Part shown: positions 1 through 7,422 of the stretch, in pieces | Position numbering within the stretch: the stretch's first letter is position 1 | How the letters are laid out: every line of letters starts with the position of its first letter | Assembly: GCA_001412365.1 (NCBI GenBank) | Contig: LKUE01000060.1 | Span: 1-7,422, forward strand | DNA: 7,422 nucleotides | Origin: Desulfuromonas sp. SDB | GTDB lineage: Bacteria > SDB-A | Direction: 5' to 3' | Notes under the pieces: generated by a model | What the model was told of the DNA's origin: nothing | What the model saw: only the letters and a program-made list of their open reading frames with translations | The model's database searches: none | Made by a program: the position numbers and the translations under genes

Positions 1-617
1 ACATCTTTTTCAATTAATTTTAAAAAATTATCAAAAAAAGTCTTAAAATCAAAAATATACAAGTCCACCTGTTCATAGGCATTAAATGTTTTCATAGATT
101 TCAACAAGTACTCTATCCGGTTAATTTCAGATATTATATTGATGAGATATTCCACTATTTTATCCTGGGGGAAATTTTCCAGATTATCTTTCAACACACT
201 CACCGCTGTTTTTATGGCATTTAAAGGATTACCAATTTCATGAGCCATTCCTGAAAATATATAGCCAATATTATCAAGATGGGTGGTGGCTTCAGCAATC
301 TTTTCCAATCTTTCTTTTTCAGTTATATCAGATATCAATACCCAGAAGTACCTGTCGAATAAAGGATAAACAGTAAATCCAAGGATTTTGTCTTTTAAGG
401 TCAGCTTGTTCTGAATTGGAGAAATTTGATGGAGCTGCAGCAGATTAATCCCGAATAATTTAATTAATTTTTCATAGCTAATTGTCTTCAGTATCTTAAT
501 AGCGGTTATATTTTGAAACACAATTTTTTCATTAATAATATCTAAAGCTATAACTCCGATGTTTAAATTAAGTAGTACCTCGTAAAATCCGAAATCATTT
601 TGTTCTGCATTTTTCAT
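1..617 (-). CDS. Sensor histidine kinase, N-terminal part (cut by left edge)
   Basis: This is the N-terminal 205 codons of a two-component sensor kinase; the catalytic ATPase domain lies beyond the left edge. Residues about 10-100 look like a divergent PAS sensor domain (GVIALDIINEKIVFQN near 21-36, then FWVLISDITEKERLE near 91-105, the usual PAS end leading into the kinase helix). The phosphoacceptor H-box is clear: SGMAHEIGNPLNAI at 122-135, with H126 the expected autophosphorylated histidine and N130-P131 the conserved Asn-Pro. HEIGNPLN-type boxes belong to the NtrB-like HisKA class. No transmembrane segment is visible in this part, so a cytoplasmic sensor is likely. The start is firm: an in-frame TAA directly precedes the ATG at 617. 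No Shine-Dalgarno sequence is seen. No response regulator gene lies in the window, so partner and signal are unknown. It is transcribed away from elp3. Confidence 0.88.
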   Translation of the reverse strand, partial: MKNAEQNDFGFYEVLLNLNIGVIALDIINEKIVFQNITAIKILKTISYEKLIKLFGINLLQLHQISPIQNKLTLKDKILGFTVYPLFDRYFWVLISDITEKERLEKIAEATTHLDNIGYIFSGMAHEIGNPLNAIKTAVSVLKDNLENFPQDKIVEYLINIISEINRIEYLLKSMKTFNAYEQVDLYIFDFKTFFDNFLKLIEKD

Positions 618-649
618 TTAAATTAAATAAAGTATTTTTTTGTATTTTG

Positions 650-673
650 TTTTATTAAATTATTTTAATAAAA
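650..673. repeat. Perfect 10-bp A/T inverted repeat
   Basis: The arm TTTTATTAAA at 650-659 is exactly complementary to TTTAATAAAA at 664-673, with a 4-nt centre TTAT. It lies 32 bp upstream of the kinase start and 112 bp upstream of elp3. It could be a regulator binding site or part of the kinase promoter. Chance is a real alternative in such A/T-biased DNA. A terminator role is unlikely because the stem has no G or C and no gene ends here. Confidence 0.45.
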
Positions 674-754
674 ATTTTGTTCCACTCCTAGGAAATTATT
701 AAATAAATTTAAAAATCTAAATAAACAATAAAAAATTATATTTTTACATTTTTA

Positions 755-781
755 TTGCCTGGTTTTAACAACTGATATTAA
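755..781 (+). promoter_or_regulatory. Candidate elp3 promoter with extended -10
   Basis: TTGCCT at 755-760 can serve as a -35. After a 15-bp spacer comes TATTAA at 776-781, preceded by TG at 773-774, giving an extended -10 (TGaTATTAA). Transcription would begin at about 787-789, on top of the annotated start codon. This implies a leaderless or nearly leaderless message, in keeping with the missing Shine-Dalgarno. Consensus match is only moderate. Confidence 0.3.
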
Positions 782-785
782 TATT

Positions 786-2570
786 ATGCTTATTATGAGG
801 TATAAAAAATTTATTCCCCAGCAATATCCACAGATTTATAAATTACTTGATGAAATCAGATCAAAAAAGCCTGAGAATTATAAAGCGTTGAAAAAATTAC
901 TGGTTAAATATCCCAAAGATAAACATTATTTATTTTCTAAATCAGATTTGATCAAAGCTTTCAGATATCTGAAAAAAATGAGGAAAATCAATGAAAAAGA
1001 AACAATTCCCTCAATATTAATTGAAAACCCTGTACGCAGCATGTCCGGAGTAAATGTGGTATCAGTTCTAACCAGACCAAATTTATGTCCTGGTCAGTGC
1101 ATATTCTGTCCTAACGATATTTTGATGCCCAAGAGCTATATTAGATCAGAACCCAGCTGCAGGAGGGCTCTTAATTGCCGTTTTGATCCCTATGATCAGG
1201 TTACCATCAGAATGAAAGCATTAACTTCAACCGGACATCCTGCAGATAAAATTGAACTGTTAATCTTAGGGGGAACTTGGAACAGTTACTCTGAAAATTA
1301 CCGAGTATGGTTTGTAAGAGAACTATTTAGAGCACTTAATGAGTTCAGCCAACAGCACAATTACGATGAGCAGGTTAGCTTCAATATAGCTCCGGAAATT
1401 GTTGATATTGAGGTTTATAAAAAACTTAATTACAATGAAATATTGAAATCTGAACTTTATCAAAAAAATCAGCACAACATTATGATTGATGATGGAGAAG
1501 GCAATTATTCCCAGTTGGGTAATCAGCAAATTATTAATGAAACTTCAGTGCATAGATGTGTAGGTCTGGCAGTGGAAACCAGACCTGATCTTATAAAATT
1601 CAAGCAACTCAGAAATTTTAGAAAATTAGGTGTCACCAAGGTTCAGATAGGTGTCCAAACTTTAAGACCTTCCATCAGAAAGATCAACAAAATCAATATC
1701 AGTTTAGAAGATATTAAATATAGTTTTAAAATTCTCCGGTTGACCGGATTTAAAATACTTGCCCATGTGATGTTTAATTTGTACACCGCATCACCTGAAG
1801 ATGATTATTCCAGCTACAAGGAAATTTTCAATTCAGGTCATTATAAACCGGATGAATTGAAAATATATCCTGCTGTTGTCACTGAAAACACAGAACTAAA
1901 TGATTTATATCAAAAAGGGCTGCATCAGATATATAAACCTGAACAATTGCTGGAGTTACTGGCTAAGTGCTTTGAAATCACTCCATCTTACTGTAGATTG
2001 CCCCGGGTGATTAGGGATATTCCCTCCACAGAAATAATAGCAGGAAATAAAATAAGCAATCTGAGGGAAGTAGTGGAGGAGAAGATGTTCAGAGAAAATA
2101 GAATTTGCAGTGATATTAGAGCCAGGGAAATTAAAAATCTAGAGATAAAATCCGCTAAATATTCTGTGATTAAATATAATACTGAAGTATCCGATGAATA
2201 TTTTCTGCAGTATACCAATTCTGAAAATAAAATTATCGCCCTGTTAAGACTTACTCTTGCCCTCAGGGACACCGGAGTTTATTCAACCATGATTGATTAC
2301 TTTCCTGAACTGGAAAATTCAGCAATTATCCGGGAAATTCATGTGTATGGTAGGAGTTTAAAGATAAACCACAGAAACAAAAATTCTCCTCAGCACTCCG
2401 GATTTGGAAAAGCATTAATAGATAAAACGATGAATATTGCTGGAAAATTTAATTTTAAAAAATTAGCAGTAATATCATCTGTGGGAACCAGGGAGTATTA
2501 CCGGAAAGTCGGTTTTTATGATGGTGAACTTTACCAATTTAAAAATATTCATTATGAGAACAGAAAATAA
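786..2570 (+). CDS. elp3: Elp3-type tRNA wobble uridine-34 modification enzyme (radical SAM/GNAT)
   Basis: Elp3 uses a 5'-deoxyadenosyl radical and acetyl-CoA to add a carboxymethyl group to C5 of wobble U34 in tRNA. The 594-residue protein has both domains. The radical-SAM cluster motif is C101-PGQ-C105-IF-C108 (CX3CX2C), followed by the Elp3 signatures PKSYIRSEPSCRRAL (115-129), DPYDQV (134-139), GHPADKIELLILGGTWNSY (150-168), ETRPD (264-268) and RDIPS (410-414). The C-terminal acetyltransferase domain shows IREIHVYG (515-522), the acetyl-CoA loop QHSGFG (536-541) and AVISSVGTREYYRKVGF (561-577). The linker reads CSDIRARE (441-448), closer to the eukaryotic CRDVRTRE as I remember it than to the Cys-rich CIRCRE form. 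Bacterial Elp3 acts alone without other Elongator subunits, and none are seen here. ATG 786 has no Shine-Dalgarno; ATG 795 is an equally plausible start. The PAP2 gene follows with no gap. Confidence 0.95.
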   Translation: MLIMRYKKFIPQQYPQIYKLLDEIRSKKPENYKALKKLLVKYPKDKHYLFSKSDLIKAFRYLKKMRKINEKETIPSILIENPVRSMSGVNVVSVLTRPNLCPGQCIFCPNDILMPKSYIRSEPSCRRALNCRFDPYDQVTIRMKALTSTGHPADKIELLILGGTWNSYSENYRVWFVRELFRALNEFSQQHNYDEQVSFNIAPEIVDIEVYKKLNYNEILKSELYQKNQHNIMIDDGEGNYSQLGNQQIINETSVHRCVGLAVETRPDLIKFKQLRNFRKLGVTKVQIGVQTLRPSIRKINKINISLEDIKYSFKILRLTGFKILAHVMFNLYTASPEDDYSSYKEIFNSGHYKPDELKIYPAVVTENTELNDLYQKGLHQIYKPEQLLELLAKCFEITPSYCRLPRVIRDIPSTEIIAGNKISNLREVVEEKMFRENRICSDIRAREIKNLEIKSAKYSVIKYNTEVSDEYFLQYTNSENKIIALLRLTLALRDTGVYSTMIDYFPELENSAIIREIHVYGRSLKINHRNKNSPQHSGFGKALIDKTMNIAGKFNFKKLAVISSVGTREYYRKVGFYDGELYQFKNIHYENRK

Positions 2571-3434
2571 ATGAAAAATAAGCTGATTAAAGAAGTATCA
2601 CTTAAATCTACAGAGGATAGTGGCAGTAAAGCTGAATTTAGATTTTCAAAATTGCAGTTTTACTGGTTTTTTATACCTGGTTTAATTTTATTTTTTCTTG
2701 CGGATATAATATTAATATTTAATTTAAATCTGGATTGGTTTTTAGCCACAAACCGTTTATCTGAATTCACCGGAGAGTATTTATGGATGGTGGTGACTTT
2801 CATCTCAGATGGGCTGGTTTCATTTATCATCCTGATCCCCTTACTCCGGAAAAAACCGGAAATAATCTGGATGGTTCTGATTGCCGCATTTTTTTCTACC
2901 CTGCTCAACCAGATTATCAAAAGAACTATGCACATCCCCCGTCCACCCTCGGTTCTGGCAGACGATCAATTCAATCTAATTGGACCGGATTGGGGTAGAT
3001 TCTCCTTCCCTTCCGGTCATGCCAGCATTGTATTTGTAATATCCGGGGTAATTGCCCTGTCCAAAGTTAAGTGGAATATAAAAGTTTTGGTGCTGTTGTT
3101 TTTTTCTCTGGTGGCATTGTCCCGTACGGTGGTAGGCGTTCATTGGCCTCTGGATGTAGTGGTGGGAGCTTTAATGGGATGGAGTTGTGCTTTAATCGGT
3201 TTTTCCCTGGCCAAGCGAACCCCCTGGGGGTACGGTTATTACGCTCAATTAATATGGGGAGCGTTGCTATTAATTTGTACTATAATATTATTTACAATAG
3301 ATTATTCTGGATTTAATAATATTATGCCGGTACAACGTCTTATAGCCGTACTGTTTTTCTGGGTGGGTTTATTTCAGTACTACAAAATTATTAAAGATCA
3401 CCAGTTAAAACACAAAACAGAAAGTAGTATTTGA
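2571..3434 (+). CDS. PAP2-family integral membrane phosphatase
   Basis: This 287-residue protein carries all three PAP2 signatures. Motif 1 is K117-x6-R124-P125; motif 2 is FPSGH at 146-150 with H150; motif 3 is S184-R185 and GVHWPLD (189-195) with nucleophile H191 and D195. Such enzymes remove phosphate from lipid phosphates such as phosphatidic acid, phosphatidylglycerol-phosphate or undecaprenyl diphosphate; the substrate cannot be told here. I count eight hydrophobic segments (about 31-54, 70-93, 97-116, 151-164, 171-187, 194-213, 225-243, 254-272). Positive loops (SKVKWN, AKRTPWG, the Lys-rich tail) lie on the cytoplasmic side, which places the active site outside. The last two segments exceed the usual six-helix core. 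The ATG abuts the elp3 stop, suggesting translational coupling; only a weak GAGAA precedes it. The gene ends in TGA, with a second in-frame TGA then TAA at 3459-3464. Confidence 0.9.
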   Translation: MKNKLIKEVSLKSTEDSGSKAEFRFSKLQFYWFFIPGLILFFLADIILIFNLNLDWFLATNRLSEFTGEYLWMVVTFISDGLVSFIILIPLLRKKPEIIWMVLIAAFFSTLLNQIIKRTMHIPRPPSVLADDQFNLIGPDWGRFSFPSGHASIVFVISGVIALSKVKWNIKVLVLLFFSLVALSRTVVGVHWPLDVVVGALMGWSCALIGFSLAKRTPWGYGYYAQLIWGALLLICTIILFTIDYSGFNNIMPVQRLIAVLFFWVGLFQYYKIIKDHQLKHKTESSI

Positions 3435-3447
3435 TCATGTAATTATT

Positions 3448-3861
3448 CTATGGATGCTTGATAACAATGGTTTTATAAAAAAATCCGCATTTATTATTCT
3501 GTGAATTAATATACCTGTACAATATTTTTGCCTGATCATACATTATGAGGATGTTGTCAAAATAATCAATTTCAGTTGAATAAAATAATAGAGAGTTGTA
3601 GACAGATGATTCTTCAGTATTAATCCATTTACCTTGATTGAAAACATAATAATGAGGGGGATCTGTGGATAATTCAGCTGATATAAAATAATTATGGTAA
3701 AAACGGTGGGCAAATCTCTGAAAAGAGGTAAATCTCTGCACAAACCGGCTATTTAGTTTTATTTGTTTTTGTTTTTTTAAATTTTTTTCATTTACAGCTT
3801 GATTGAGTTTTTGATGGAGGGCAGCAAAAGCTGTATGTGGATTTCCGGTTAAAAATTCCAT
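3448..3861 (-). CDS. C-terminal remnant of the UvrC/Cho-like protein
   Basis: This is the downstream part of the interrupted gene, in the same frame, counted from the first ATG after the UGA; similarity actually begins at 3924. The first 45 residues (MEFLTGNPHTAFAALHQKLN and a Lys/Gln-rich helical stretch) align with the post-Cys region and a degenerate UVR-like helix pair of UvrC. The rest, rich in Tyr, Phe and Ile, matches nothing I recognise. It has no Shine-Dalgarno and probably is not translated alone unless the UGA is read through. The frame stayed free of other stops down to TAG at 3448-3450, 13 bp from the PAP2 stop, so any inactivation is likely recent. Confidence 0.4.
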   Translation of the reverse strand: MEFLTGNPHTAFAALHQKLNQAVNEKNLKKQKQIKLNSRFVQRFTSFQRFAHRFYHNYFISAELSTDPPHYYVFNQGKWINTEESSVYNSLLFYSTEIDYFDNILIMYDQAKILYRYINSQNNKCGFFYKTIVIKHP

Positions 3862-3924
3862 AACTAATCTAACTAAAACTGAGTATTCAGCAGGGGGAAT
3901 TTTATCTCTGCAGGGGGCAGAACA

Positions 3925-3927
3925 TCA
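3925..3927 (-). other. In-frame UGA at codon 179 of the UvrC/Cho-like gene
   Basis: The minus-strand codon is TGA, followed directly by TGT (Cys). It falls inside a conserved Cys motif where homologues carry Arg. A small hairpin (TTCTGC, loop CCCCT, GCAGAG) starts 2 nt downstream. It is too short and too close for a bacterial SECIS, and its loop has no G. None of the other roughly 1,890 sense codons in the intact genes of the window is TGA, which argues against genome-wide reassignment. Confidence 0.8.
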
Positions 3928-4461
3928 TTGCAAGTCATATCTTAGGCATTTGTTACGGGGAAGGTGCTGTTGACAGGTTCTTATTTTGAAAAGATCTGAA
4001 ACAAAGTTGATCAAATCTTGGGCAAAGAATTTGTCTTTATAGGGACCAAACCATTCAGAGTTCAAGTGGGGTCGGGTAATTATTTTTAGATAAGGAAAGG
4101 AATTGCCGGATATTTCTATAAATTTATATTGGGGATAATCTTTCTGTTTAATATTATATTCAGGCATATATTTTTTTATCATATCATTTTCAAGAAGAAG
4201 GGACTCCAAATCGGACCGGGTAGTTTTAAAATAAAAAAAACAAATGTTTAACAACAAATTTCTATGTACCAGGGGAATATTGCTGGATCCGGATTTCAGT
4301 TTTTGAATTTTATGATAATATGATTTTATTCGATTTTTTAATTTTTTAGTTTTCCCGATATAGATTACTGATTTTTGGTTGTCCTGAAAAAAATATATTC
4401 CTCCCCTGTTAGGAATATCCTTGATATTATTTTGATTAAATAAACGGGATGAGTTTAACAT
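3925..4461 (-). CDS. N-terminal GIY-YIG nuclease half of the UvrC/Cho-like protein
   Basis: If UGA is read as stop, a 178-residue protein results. It contains a complete GIY-YIG endonuclease domain at about residues 14-105: GIY at 21-23, YIGK at 34-37, the catalytic Arg R44 in LKNRIKSYY, and ESLLLENDMIKKYMPEYN (86-103) with the likely metal-binding Glu E91. In UvrC this domain cuts 3' of a DNA lesion after UvrB loading. The following segment (KDYPQYKFIEIS, then FGPY) is also UvrC-like. It ends inside the Cys motif that normally leads to the UVR/UvrB-contact region, so UvrB-dependent targeting would probably fail even if the nuclease fold survives. The ATG at 4461 has no Shine-Dalgarno but has a good promoter candidate at 4488-4516 and puts the domain at the usual distance from the N-terminus. 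Confidence 0.7.
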   Translation of the reverse strand: MLNSSRLFNQNNIKDIPNRGGIYFFQDNQKSVIYIGKTKKLKNRIKSYYHKIQKLKSGSSNIPLVHRNLLLNICFFYFKTTRSDLESLLLENDMIKKYMPEYNIKQKDYPQYKFIEISGNSFPYLKIITRPHLNSEWFGPYKDKFFAQDLINFVSDLFKIRTCQQHLPRNKCLRYDLQ

Positions 4462-4468
4462 TTAATTA

Positions 4469-4495
4469 TTGACAAAAAATATAATATATTATGAA
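4469..4495 (+). promoter_or_regulatory. Candidate promoter of the aldo/keto reductase gene
   Basis: A perfect -35 hexamer TTGACA lies at 4469-4474. The nearest acceptable -10 is TATGAA at 4490-4495 with a short 15-bp spacer, so the pair is only moderate. It overlaps the oppositely directed -10 at 4488-4493, so the two promoters would compete. The leader would be about 60 nt. Confidence 0.3.
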
Positions 4496-4516
4496 ATTCC
4501 AAGTAAATTTTAACAA
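4488..4516 (-). promoter_or_regulatory. Candidate promoter of the UvrC/Cho-like gene
   Basis: On the minus strand, TTGTTA (4516-4511) is followed after exactly 17 bp by CATAAT (4493-4488), matching the -35 and -10 consensus at 4/6 and 5/6. The predicted transcript starts near 4481, about 20 nt before the ATG at 4461. Confidence 0.45.
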
Positions 4517-4520
4517 CTCT

Positions 4521-4540
4521 GCAAATGAAGTCAAATTTGC
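4521..4540 (+). repeat. Small inverted repeat in the reductase leader
   Basis: GCAAAT (4521-4526) and ATTTGC (4535-4540) are complementary with an 8-nt loop. It lies 9 nt before the Shine-Dalgarno. It could be a weak leader hairpin or an operator, but at six A/T-rich pairs it may be chance. Confidence 0.25.
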
Positions 4541-4549
4541 TATATGTTT

Positions 4550-4555
4550 AAGGAG
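4550..4555 (+). promoter_or_regulatory. Strong Shine-Dalgarno of the reductase gene
   Basis: AAGGAG sits 7 nt upstream of the ATG at 4563 and fixes that start. It is the best ribosome binding site in the window. Confidence 0.8.
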
Positions 4556-4562
4556 TTAATTA

Positions 4563-5702
4563 ATGAAGTATAGAAAATTTGGTGATACCGGCTGGGAAGC
4601 ATCGGTACTGGGTTTTGGGTGCATGAGATTGCCCACCAAAGAAAATTATTCAGATATAGATGAACCTCGGGCAGAGGAACTTTTTAATTTTGCTGTCGAA
4701 CAGGGCATTAATTATTTTGATACCGCTTATCCCTATCACGGAGGAAATAGTGAGGTGTGGTTGGGAAAGTATTTCCATAGACGTCCTGAACTAACCCATA
4801 TAAAAATTGCCACCAAATTACCGGTTTGGAAAGTGGAAAAACCTGATGATTTCCATCGGTATCTGGAAGAACAGTTAAAAAAATTAAAAAGAGATAAAAT
4901 TGATTTTTACCTGCTTCATGCCTTGAATGAAGAATTATGGAACAAAGTAAAAAAAATGGATATTTTAAAAAATTTAGAGGAATCGAAAAAACAAGGAATT
5001 ATCGGCAATATGGGTTTTTCATTTCACGATCAATATCCTGTTTTTAAACAGATTATTGATGAATATCCTCAATGGGATTTCTGCCAGATACAGTATAACT
5101 ACATGAATGAAGATTTTCAGGCAGGAACCAAAGGTTATCAATTTGCAGTGGATATGGGTATACCCATTATCGTTATGGAACCTCTTTTGGGGGGAAGATT
5201 GGTAAATCCTCCACCCAGTATTAACCGGATCTGGAAACAGGCATTAACTTCCAGAACTCCTCCTGCCTGGGCATTACAATGGCTTTGGAGTAAACCTGGA
5301 ATCAGCATTGTATTAAGCGGTATGAGTAGCTTGGAACAGCTTAAGGAAAACATCTTAACCGCTAATAAATCTAAAGTCAATTTACTCAATGATGATGATT
5401 TAGATGTTATTGACCAGGTGCGGGAACAGTATTTATTTTTGAAGCCGATACCTTGTAATGATTGCAAATACTGCCTTCCTTGTCCGGAAGATGTTGATAT
5501 TCCCAGAATATTCGAAGTTTACAATTCAGGTAAAATGTATGAAAAAATAGAAATTGCTAAAAAATTCTATCAATGGATTAAACCTGAAAATAATGCATCT
5601 CGATGTTTGCACTGCGGTCAATGTGAACAGAAATGTCCTCAAAATATTAATATTTCTGATTTACTCTCAGAAATTCATGACACTCTAAGCGTTAAAAATT
5701 AA
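4563..5702 (+). CDS. Ferredoxin-type aldo/keto reductase with two [4Fe-4S] sites
   Basis: This 379-residue cytoplasmic oxidoreductase joins an aldo/keto reductase TIM barrel (about 1-285) to a C-terminal dicluster ferredoxin module. The barrel opens with MKYRKFGDTGWEASVLGFGC. The catalytic tetrad is visible: D53 and Y58 in FDTAYPYHGG, K85 in IATKLP, H119 in YLLHAL. The first cluster site is C298-x2-C301-x2-C304-x2-C307-P, followed by the typical VDIPRIFEVYN. The second is C348-x2-C351-x2-C354-x3-C358-P. Length and layout match the Fe-S aldo/keto reductases common in anaerobes, where electrons may pass through the clusters rather than only by hydride transfer from NAD(P)H; the substrate is not predictable. 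It is monocistronic, with a good Shine-Dalgarno and a 340-bp spacer behind it. Confidence 0.93.
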   Translation: MKYRKFGDTGWEASVLGFGCMRLPTKENYSDIDEPRAEELFNFAVEQGINYFDTAYPYHGGNSEVWLGKYFHRRPELTHIKIATKLPVWKVEKPDDFHRYLEEQLKKLKRDKIDFYLLHALNEELWNKVKKMDILKNLEESKKQGIIGNMGFSFHDQYPVFKQIIDEYPQWDFCQIQYNYMNEDFQAGTKGYQFAVDMGIPIIVMEPLLGGRLVNPPPSINRIWKQALTSRTPPAWALQWLWSKPGISIVLSGMSSLEQLKENILTANKSKVNLLNDDDLDVIDQVREQYLFLKPIPCNDCKYCLPCPEDVDIPRIFEVYNSGKMYEKIEIAKKFYQWIKPENNASRCLHCGQCEQKCPQNINISDLLSEIHDTLSVKN

Positions 5703-5711
5703 CTTACCATA

Positions 5712-5728
5712 GTGGTTGAAAAAACCGC
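5712..5728 (+). terminator. Weak hairpin after the reductase gene
   Basis: GTGGTT (5712-5717) can pair with AACCGC (5723-5728) across the loop GAAAA, with one G-U pair. It lies 10 nt after the reductase stop. There is no U-run behind it, so it is a poor intrinsic terminator and may only protect the 3' end. Confidence 0.2.
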
Positions 5729-5827
5729 ATTAATCTTCAATTTTAAACATCATCAAAGAAGTTCTTTATAAAGGATTTTATTGGAAAACTAAAAGAATAA
5801 AAATTTTCAGGTGTTAAACAATCATAA

Positions 5828-5848
5828 TTAGCATAAATAAAATGCTAA
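5828..5848. repeat. Perfect 7-bp inverted repeat
   Basis: TTAGCAT (5828-5834) and ATGCTAA (5842-5848) are exact complements with a 7-nt A/T centre, so the arm centres are 14 bp apart. No T-run follows, so it is not a terminator. It lies about 100 bp upstream of the putative hydrolase promoter and could be a regulator site. Confidence 0.35.
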
Positions 5849-5939
5849 ATAACTGTTGAGTAGACAGTGAATTAAATTACAAAAACAAGTAATATAAATG
5901 TTTAATTTTATTTTGAATTATCTGGATTAATACTTTTAG

Positions 5940-5968
5940 TTGATTTATAAGCTGTCTTAATATATCAT
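5940..5968 (+). promoter_or_regulatory. Candidate promoter of the alpha/beta hydrolase gene
   Basis: TTGATT (5940-5945), a 17-bp spacer and TATCAT (5963-5968) match consensus at 4/6 and 5/6. The leader would be about 68 nt. The match is moderate in an A/T-rich background. Confidence 0.3.
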
Positions 5969-6032
5969 CTCAATTATGATTTTAATTGCTTGTTCTCTTA
6001 ATTTAACTCCACTTCATACCAAAACACTAATC

Positions 6033-6037
6033 AGGGG
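6033..6037 (+). promoter_or_regulatory. Shine-Dalgarno of the hydrolase gene
   Basis: AGGGG lies 5 nt upstream of the ATG at 6043 and supports that start. Confidence 0.6.
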
Positions 6038-6042
6038 TATAT

Positions 6043-7320
6043 ATGAATAGTAATGAAAAGCCAACTCTTAAATCAATTATCAAGAATATTATTCGAAGAG
6101 GTCCTAAAACCTCTCCTCAAAAAAAAATTGCAGTCGTGGTAACTCATGGAGTGGGGGATCAGGAACCTTATCAAACCTTGGATCTGTTCACTAGACATTT
6201 TTATCAGATATATCAGCAGCTGATTAAACAAGAATTTCCTGAGGTGGAGTTGAAACTCAGTCATCAATTAATTAAATTTGACCATGAATCTAAAAGTACA
6301 ATCCGTATATTTTCAGAACCCCAGATAAGCAGAATTCCCCAAATTGATATTTATGAATTTTATTGGGCTGATATCACCGAAGGAAAGATTGAAGCAGATG
6401 AAGTGATTAGCTGTATTTTCGATATCGCAAAGGGAGCTAAAAAATTTTACAGTGAGATTAGACATCAGGGGGAATTAAATTCTAAATCCGGTTATCGCCC
6501 CGGTCGAAATGAAAATAAGGAATATTTATTTACTTATGACGGTGAATTTCTTTATCTGAAATATCTAATTAATCTGGTTAATTATGCCTGTAATTTTTCC
6601 AGATTTTCCAAATACTTGATTAAAATGTACAGACTGTTTTTCCCTTCTGGTTTGTTTGAAAATTTCATTTACAAAATGTTTATTCGAGGATTTAACAGCA
6701 AGATTGTCAATGTGTTGGGAGATCTGGCTTTGTACACCGCCAGTGACAGAAAGTCTGAATTTTATGGAATTAGGAAAAAAATACTTAAAAGATCAACTGA
6801 ATTTATAACTGAGCTTATATCCGGAAAGAACGATAATGAATATAATGAAATTATTTTACTGGGTCATTCCTTAGGCAGTGTTATTTTTTATGATACTATT
6901 GATTATATTAATAAACTTTTAAATTTGAATCCGGAGATGGAGAAAAATTCATCTAAGTTGAGTGGTTTTATAACCCTGGGATCACCCTTGGATAAAGTTG
7001 CCTTCCTGTTTGCCCAGAGAATAAATTCTGACATCAACTTTGTCCGTTCAGCAATAACTTCTCATCTGCACAGTTTTAAAAAACATCAACCATTGGATTC
7101 AAGGATTGAAACTAATCTGAAAACATATTTCAATGATATTGAATGGCTTAATTTTTGGTCACCTTCGGATCCTATATCCGGTTTTCTAGATGTGTATAAA
7201 CCTTTGAAGAACTATAAATTAGTTTATAATGATCCCATAATTTCTAAACACAGCCATTCGTTTTACTGGGAATGTGAAGATATCTATAAAAAAATTATTG
7301 AGGTGTTTAACTTAATTTAG
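6043..7320 (+). CDS. Alpha/beta hydrolase (lipase/esterase-like), large insertion
   Basis: This 425-residue protein has the core of a serine alpha/beta hydrolase. A first strand and oxyanion-type turn, KIAVVVTHGVGDQ, is at 28-40. The nucleophile elbow ILLGHSLGS at 271-279 has S276. TLGSP at 311-315 begins the next strand. FWSPSDPISG (371-380) offers D376 as the acid, and KHSHSFYWE (402-410) offers H405 as the base. The substrate is not known; the arrangement recalls lipase-like and PGAP1-like hydrolases. About 240 residues separate the HG turn from the nucleophile, far more than in a minimal fold. The insert contains an amphipathic, aromatic-rich stretch (about 165-215) that could be a lid or a membrane-contacting part, but no clear transmembrane helix. 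There is no signal peptide, so it is likely cytoplasmic or peripheral. The gene ends in TAG and overlaps the convergent nuclease gene by 14 bp. Confidence 0.85.
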   Translation: MNSNEKPTLKSIIKNIIRRGPKTSPQKKIAVVVTHGVGDQEPYQTLDLFTRHFYQIYQQLIKQEFPEVELKLSHQLIKFDHESKSTIRIFSEPQISRIPQIDIYEFYWADITEGKIEADEVISCIFDIAKGAKKFYSEIRHQGELNSKSGYRPGRNENKEYLFTYDGEFLYLKYLINLVNYACNFSRFSKYLIKMYRLFFPSGLFENFIYKMFIRGFNSKIVNVLGDLALYTASDRKSEFYGIRKKILKRSTEFITELISGKNDNEYNEIILLGHSLGSVIFYDTIDYINKLLNLNPEMEKNSSKLSGFITLGSPLDKVAFLFAQRINSDINFVRSAITSHLHSFKKHQPLDSRIETNLKTYFNDIEWLNFWSPSDPISGFLDVYKPLKNYKLVYNDPIISKHSHSFYWECEDIYKKIIEVFNLI

Positions 7321-7422
7321 TTATCTGCTCCGGGCTATAACATAACTCTCTGAAATTGCAATAAGCACAAATCTTTTTATTTTCAGTTAATGGAAAAAAA
7401 TTTTTCGGTTTTGGAATATTTT
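7307..7422 (-). CDS. C-terminal end of a PD-(D/E)XK Fe-S nuclease (AddB/Cas4-like), cut by right edge
   Basis: Only the final 37 codons lie in the window, read on the minus strand from 7420 to a TAA at 7309-7307. They contain NFFPLTENKKICAYCNFREL followed by C, that is C-x2-C-x5-C, ten residues before the C-terminus. This spacing and the Pro-x-Thr-Glu-Asn-x-x-x-Cys lead-in are what I know from the C-terminal [4Fe-4S] staple of AddB, Cas4 and related RecB-family nucleases, where a fourth Cys lies far upstream. Family membership is inferred from this short tail, and the catalytic motifs are outside the window. AddB, Cas4 or a stand-alone exonuclease cannot be told apart. The 3' end overlaps the hydrolase gene tail to tail. 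Confidence 0.65.
   Translation of the reverse strand, partial: NIPKPKNFFPLTENKKICAYCNFRELCYSPEQITKLS

Follow-up and report, generated by a model that had tools for sequence, protein, structure and literature searches.

We report a Cho-like gene, related to the N-terminal half of UvrC, that is interrupted by a single in-frame UGA, which we consider probably a real and recent nonsense change in a dispensable paralogue of UvrC. The window, i.e. the whole 7,422-nt stretch of DNA analyzed (positions 1-7422), is the entire contig C60 of a 3.14 Mb genome assembled in 433 contigs, with 98.7% completeness and 3.91% estimated contamination. This interpretation is based on the single stop, the undecayed tail behind it, an intact uvrC in the same genome, the lack of a SECIS element and a column in which relatives carry residues other than Cys. 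The relevant features of the window are as follows:

3448..4461, minus strand: Cho-like/UvrC-N-terminal-like gene of 337 codons with one internal TGA (ATG at 4461, TAG at 3448-3450)
4153..4404, minus strand: intact GIY-YIG nuclease domain 5' of the TGA (residues 20-103; PF01541, E 1.4e-07)
3910..3975, minus strand: four-Cys region (Cys163, Cys172, Cys180 and Cys184, invariant in alignment A1)
3925..3927, minus strand: in-frame TGA at codon 179, immediately 5' of the third conserved Cys codon (TGT)
3451..3924, minus strand: open frame after the TGA, 158 codons (180-251 UvrC-like, 252-337 without known relatives)
3906..3922, minus strand: 6-bp hairpin directly 3' of the TGA (UUCUGC-CCCCU-GCAGAG)

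Inspection of the minus-strand frame from 4461 to 3448 confirmed the first-pass annotation's claim of a lone internal stop, with no frameshift over the 337 codons, and its proposal that UvrC similarity runs through the TGA in one frame is borne out by TIGR00194, the score of which rises from 127.6 bits for the pre-TGA part to 171.4 bits when the TGA is read as X (residues 11-251). The post-TGA portion matches UvrC models by itself at the expected position (E 1.4e-05 and 2.6e-05), and dicodon coding scores are 0.31 before and 0.36 after the TGA, with the next-best frame at -0.59. The similarity across codon 179 is not due to chance and, because the flanking frame is real and undecayed on both sides, either the break arose recently or translation still reaches the tail. 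The suggestion that the event is recent is likewise supported: the ratio of downstream to upstream identity around the TGA is 0.85, as compared to 0.82 +/- 0.06 for intact UvrCs, and since the tail keeps UvrC-level conservation and coding signal, a nonsense event here would be a young one. UvrC similarity stops near residue 251, and the final ~86 residues have no known match.

The catalytic module upstream of the TGA is also matched by the 1yd6 UvrC N-terminal domain (E 1.2e-11), carries the YIGK signature and retains Y34, R44, E86 and N103, all invariant in alignment A1. The TGA falls between the second and third of the four cysteines, which are presumably the UvrC Fe-S ligands, so that Cys180 and Cys184 are encoded only after it; Cys180 follows the UGA directly, as had been noted from the sequence, and its position is invariant in the same alignment. 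For the [4Fe4S] cluster of UvrC, PMC11138216 cites an earlier reference. Were the TGA read as a stop, ribosomes would halt after codon 178, and the product would comprise at most the GIY-YIG domain, minus the second half of the four-Cys site and the tail. The gene would then probably be a pseudogene of recent origin or a knock-out at strain level, with excision repair carried by the intact 601-aa uvrC found on contig C360, and we infer that the TGA is present in cells, that the gene is inactivated and that its loss is tolerated.

A close orthologue of the gene was not found in 41 genomes, in scans of genome contigs or in viral contigs, nor among four genomes of the phylum. The genome-contig scan with the single protein returned no close relatives and the alignment-based search only UvrCs at 24-39% identity, and the viral-contig matches are all bacterial-type or viral UvrCs. 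Overall, the window protein shares only 23-39% identity with the UvrCs found. The sister-genus genomes lack a Cho-like gene and carry full-length UvrC alone, which is consistent with dispensability.

With respect to its surroundings, contig C60 has 32.5% GC, against a median of 38% for the sampled genome, and ranks 51/54 by tetranucleotide distance. Despite this atypical composition, we rejected the idea that it is a misbinned contaminant, as the neighboring aldo/keto reductase has its best matches (50-51%) in sister genomes; judged by sequence similarity, the contig probably belongs to the genome bin. The window further encodes an Elp3-type radical SAM/GNAT protein (786-2570, plus strand), which scores 420 bits against TIGR01211, here in a bacterium, and has homologues in three sister genomes at 36-39% identity; an apparent internal TGA in one of these homologues proved to be its ordinary terminator. 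At the contig edge, the end of an open frame on the minus strand (7321-7422; ..KKICAYCNFRELCYSPEQITKLS) by eye recalls the Fe-S Cys motif at the C terminus of Cas4/AddB-type PD-(D/E)XK nucleases.

The TGA base is read from a draft assembly consensus, and the strongest competitor to a nonsense change, although improbable in our estimate, is a sequencing, assembly or strain-mixture artefact, in which case cells would have a sense codon and an intact gene. A single changed base in a frame that is otherwise flawless, with no decay behind it, would fit such an error, as would the fragmentation of the assembly, its estimated contamination and the outlying composition of the contig. Conversely, the site has no homopolymer, the reductase neighbor places the contig probably in the bin, and errors of this type appear to occur at a low rate. 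The latter point comes from a survey of interrupted frames in ~755 kb of genome stretches, which yielded no convincing TAA- or TAG-interrupted frames: apparent cases were resolved by inspection as neighboring genes that start at codons other than ATG, as the flanks of tRNA genes or as antisense noise. Other frames broken by TGA alone, which the first-pass annotation had proposed to look for, are present on contigs C305, C210 and C35. As these look like genuine Sec sites and no TAA or TAG break was convincing, simple nonsense changes would seem to be uncommon in this genome, and their apparent rarity in the sampled ~755 kb also counts against the nonsense change that we favor.

A second, more doubtful alternative is that the UGA is translated, by selenocysteine insertion or low-level readthrough, so that the Cho-like protein is made at full length and carries U or another residue beside the third cluster Cys. 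The undecayed tail would be expected in this case, and UGA is indeed read as selenocysteine in this genome: tRNA-Sec (anticodon UCA), selA and selB adjoin one another on C305, and selD is found on C363, with a second, UGA-containing copy elsewhere:

C363:12357-13277, plus strand: selD, Cys version (L366), within a longer 737-aa open frame
C432:3256-4002, plus strand: second selD, UGA version (L367), with UGA in place of the first Cys in the GCAC motif of SelD1

We take the first Cys of this motif to be the classic Sec position, and the C432 UGA is followed by a hairpin with the loop CGUGU. The UGA codon is not reassigned genome-wide, as it terminates 129/438 long ORFs and the Trp tRNA has the anticodon CCA. 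Suppression by another UGA-reading tRNA, also raised initially, finds no support among the 40 tRNA genes read with ARAGORN, where tRNA-Sec alone has a UCA anticodon. The translational reading is further encouraged by several Sec-type UGA genes in the same genome, one of them coding for an FG-GAP protein in which UGA and Cys codons are paired; they are listed here together with homologues from the sister genus:

C305:14706-15902, plus strand: T9SS-type UGA protein (L214, L310), beside selC
C158:6751-7923, plus strand: T9SS-type UGA protein (L311), 35% identical to the C305 copy
L318, L319, L320 and L328-L331, three sister-genus genomes: T9SS-type UGA homologues
C210, L240:9499-9501, minus strand: thioredoxin-like U-x-x-C protein, UGA in ..LEIHSGAY-U-GGCASS..
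C35, L273:5983-5985, plus strand: FG-GAP repeat protein with UGA-Cys, UGA in ..LPYG-U-CTGATNPQVVDFNDDG..

In 9/9 of the T9SS-type proteins, from two genera, a single in-frame UGA occupies the same column, usually as Cys-UGA, and is followed by a hairpin with its loop ~25-31 nt after the UGA. The loop reads AGUU plus one base in 6/9 members (AGUUC in the C305 copy, where the hairpin is stable), among them L331, in which a C-G to U-A exchange preserves the stem (CCCAU/AUGGG for CCCAC/GUGGG). Pfam and NCBIfam models match their C-terminal sorting domain alone, and more distant homologues without the TGA exist, of which L321, aligned across the column, has CSYG nearby. A literature search for selenoproteins and T9SS had no paper with both among its ten best matches, which is not proof of novelty; these exported proteins are likely a new selenoprotein family. 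The C210 protein, thioredoxin-like by eye, has an FlgD-type domain at its C terminus and matches the T9SS tail below threshold, and its UGA is followed at a spacing of 21 nt by a stable 8-bp hairpin with the loop AGUU. In the C35 protein, the UGA is likewise followed by a stable 8-bp hairpin (loop GGU), and another repeat has Cys-Cys at the corresponding place, again by eye.

The window UGA fares differently when examined against the bSECIS model of PMC13188914, which specifies a loop of 3-9 nt, a stem of 4-16 bp, G in loop positions 1-2, a spacing of 16-37 nt and an MFE of at most -7.5. Our implementation passes 8/11 Sec candidates of the lineage, 7/200 random coding positions and 5/125 ordinary TGA terminators, a background of 3.5-4% of positions. 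The three failures (L328-L330) form one subgroup, the hairpin of which has a longer loop, and the model therefore misses some sites. After codon 179 it finds no candidate whatsoever: the sole hairpin there has the loop CCCCU 8 nt past the UGA and, given this position and the absence of G, is not SECIS-like.

The column itself also argues against selenocysteine. Among 80 UvrCs from genomes it holds R in 40, N and L in 13 each, K in 7, Q in 4, and T, M and I once each; 60 UvrCs from viral contigs have Arg or Lys, 30 others have R, L, K, E, M, Q or I, and the intact UvrC of the host has Leu. The description of the residue as usually Arg thus stands for half of the genome set and fails for the rest, where Leu, Asn, Lys, Gln and others occur; every distant relative has a sense codon here, and both Arg and Leu codons lie a single base change away from TGA. 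Cys is found in none of the ~170 aligned UvrCs, whereas homologues of known Sec families normally have Cys at the Sec position; the Sargasso Sea survey made such a homologue a requirement (PMC1088965). The titles and abstracts returned by a full-text literature search contain no Sec-containing UvrC. The initial proposal to check for selenocysteine is therefore answered in two parts, with selC, selA, selB and selD all present in the genome, and codon 179 itself lacking both a SECIS and a Cys in its column. A selenoprotein reading of the Cho-like nuclease, with Sec abutting an Fe-S cluster Cys and inserted without a canonical SECIS, strikes us as very unlikely; if true, it would constitute a Sec site without descent from Cys, in a DNA-repair nuclease. 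Least plausible of all is a functional GIY-YIG protein cut short at 178 residues, with the tail as a fossil, for while the catalytic domain and its conserved active-site residues lie entirely 5' of the TGA, the tail shows no decay and such a protein would end between the cluster cysteines, leaving Cys163 and Cys172 unpartnered.

Taken alone, a probably broken copy of one repair-nuclease paralogue is a minor finding, and the nonsense change that we prefer for it serves mainly as a case for caution and calibration, where a lone in-frame UGA in a well-conserved frame of a Sec-using genome tempts one to annotate a selenoprotein, against the evidence of the SECIS and Cys-column tests. These tests also point to other UGA genes, apparent new exported selenoproteins in a little-sampled phylum, which are a more interesting by-product than the window gene.

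Compared to bacterial selenoprotein genes such as SelD, the window gene shares the in-frame UGA, the conserved frame and the Sec-decoding genome, but has neither a SECIS, nor Cys at the column, nor a conserved UGA in relatives. With respect to UvrC (TIGR00194), residues 11-251 align to the N-terminal half and include all four cluster cysteines, whereas the 171.4 bits of the window frame fall below the cut-off of 285.45, the frame ends at residue 337 without the C-terminal EndoV/RNase H-like nuclease and HhH domains of orthodox UvrC, and the host carries a separate full uvrC besides it. An E. coli-type Cho is not matched either, with NF007833 scoring 35.4 bits against a cut-off of 367, the match ending at residue 204 and the Cho-specific C-terminal domain lacking. 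In relation to the broader Cho-like subfamily of the UvrC-like GIY-YIG family (PMC1564403), the window gene stands apart by the degenerate state of its UvrB-binding-like stretch, the ~86 C-terminal residues without relatives and the UGA break, yet it has the same succession of GIY-YIG domain, four-Cys region and UvrB-binding-like stretch and, as in that subfamily, dispenses with the EndoV/RNase H-like and HhH domains.
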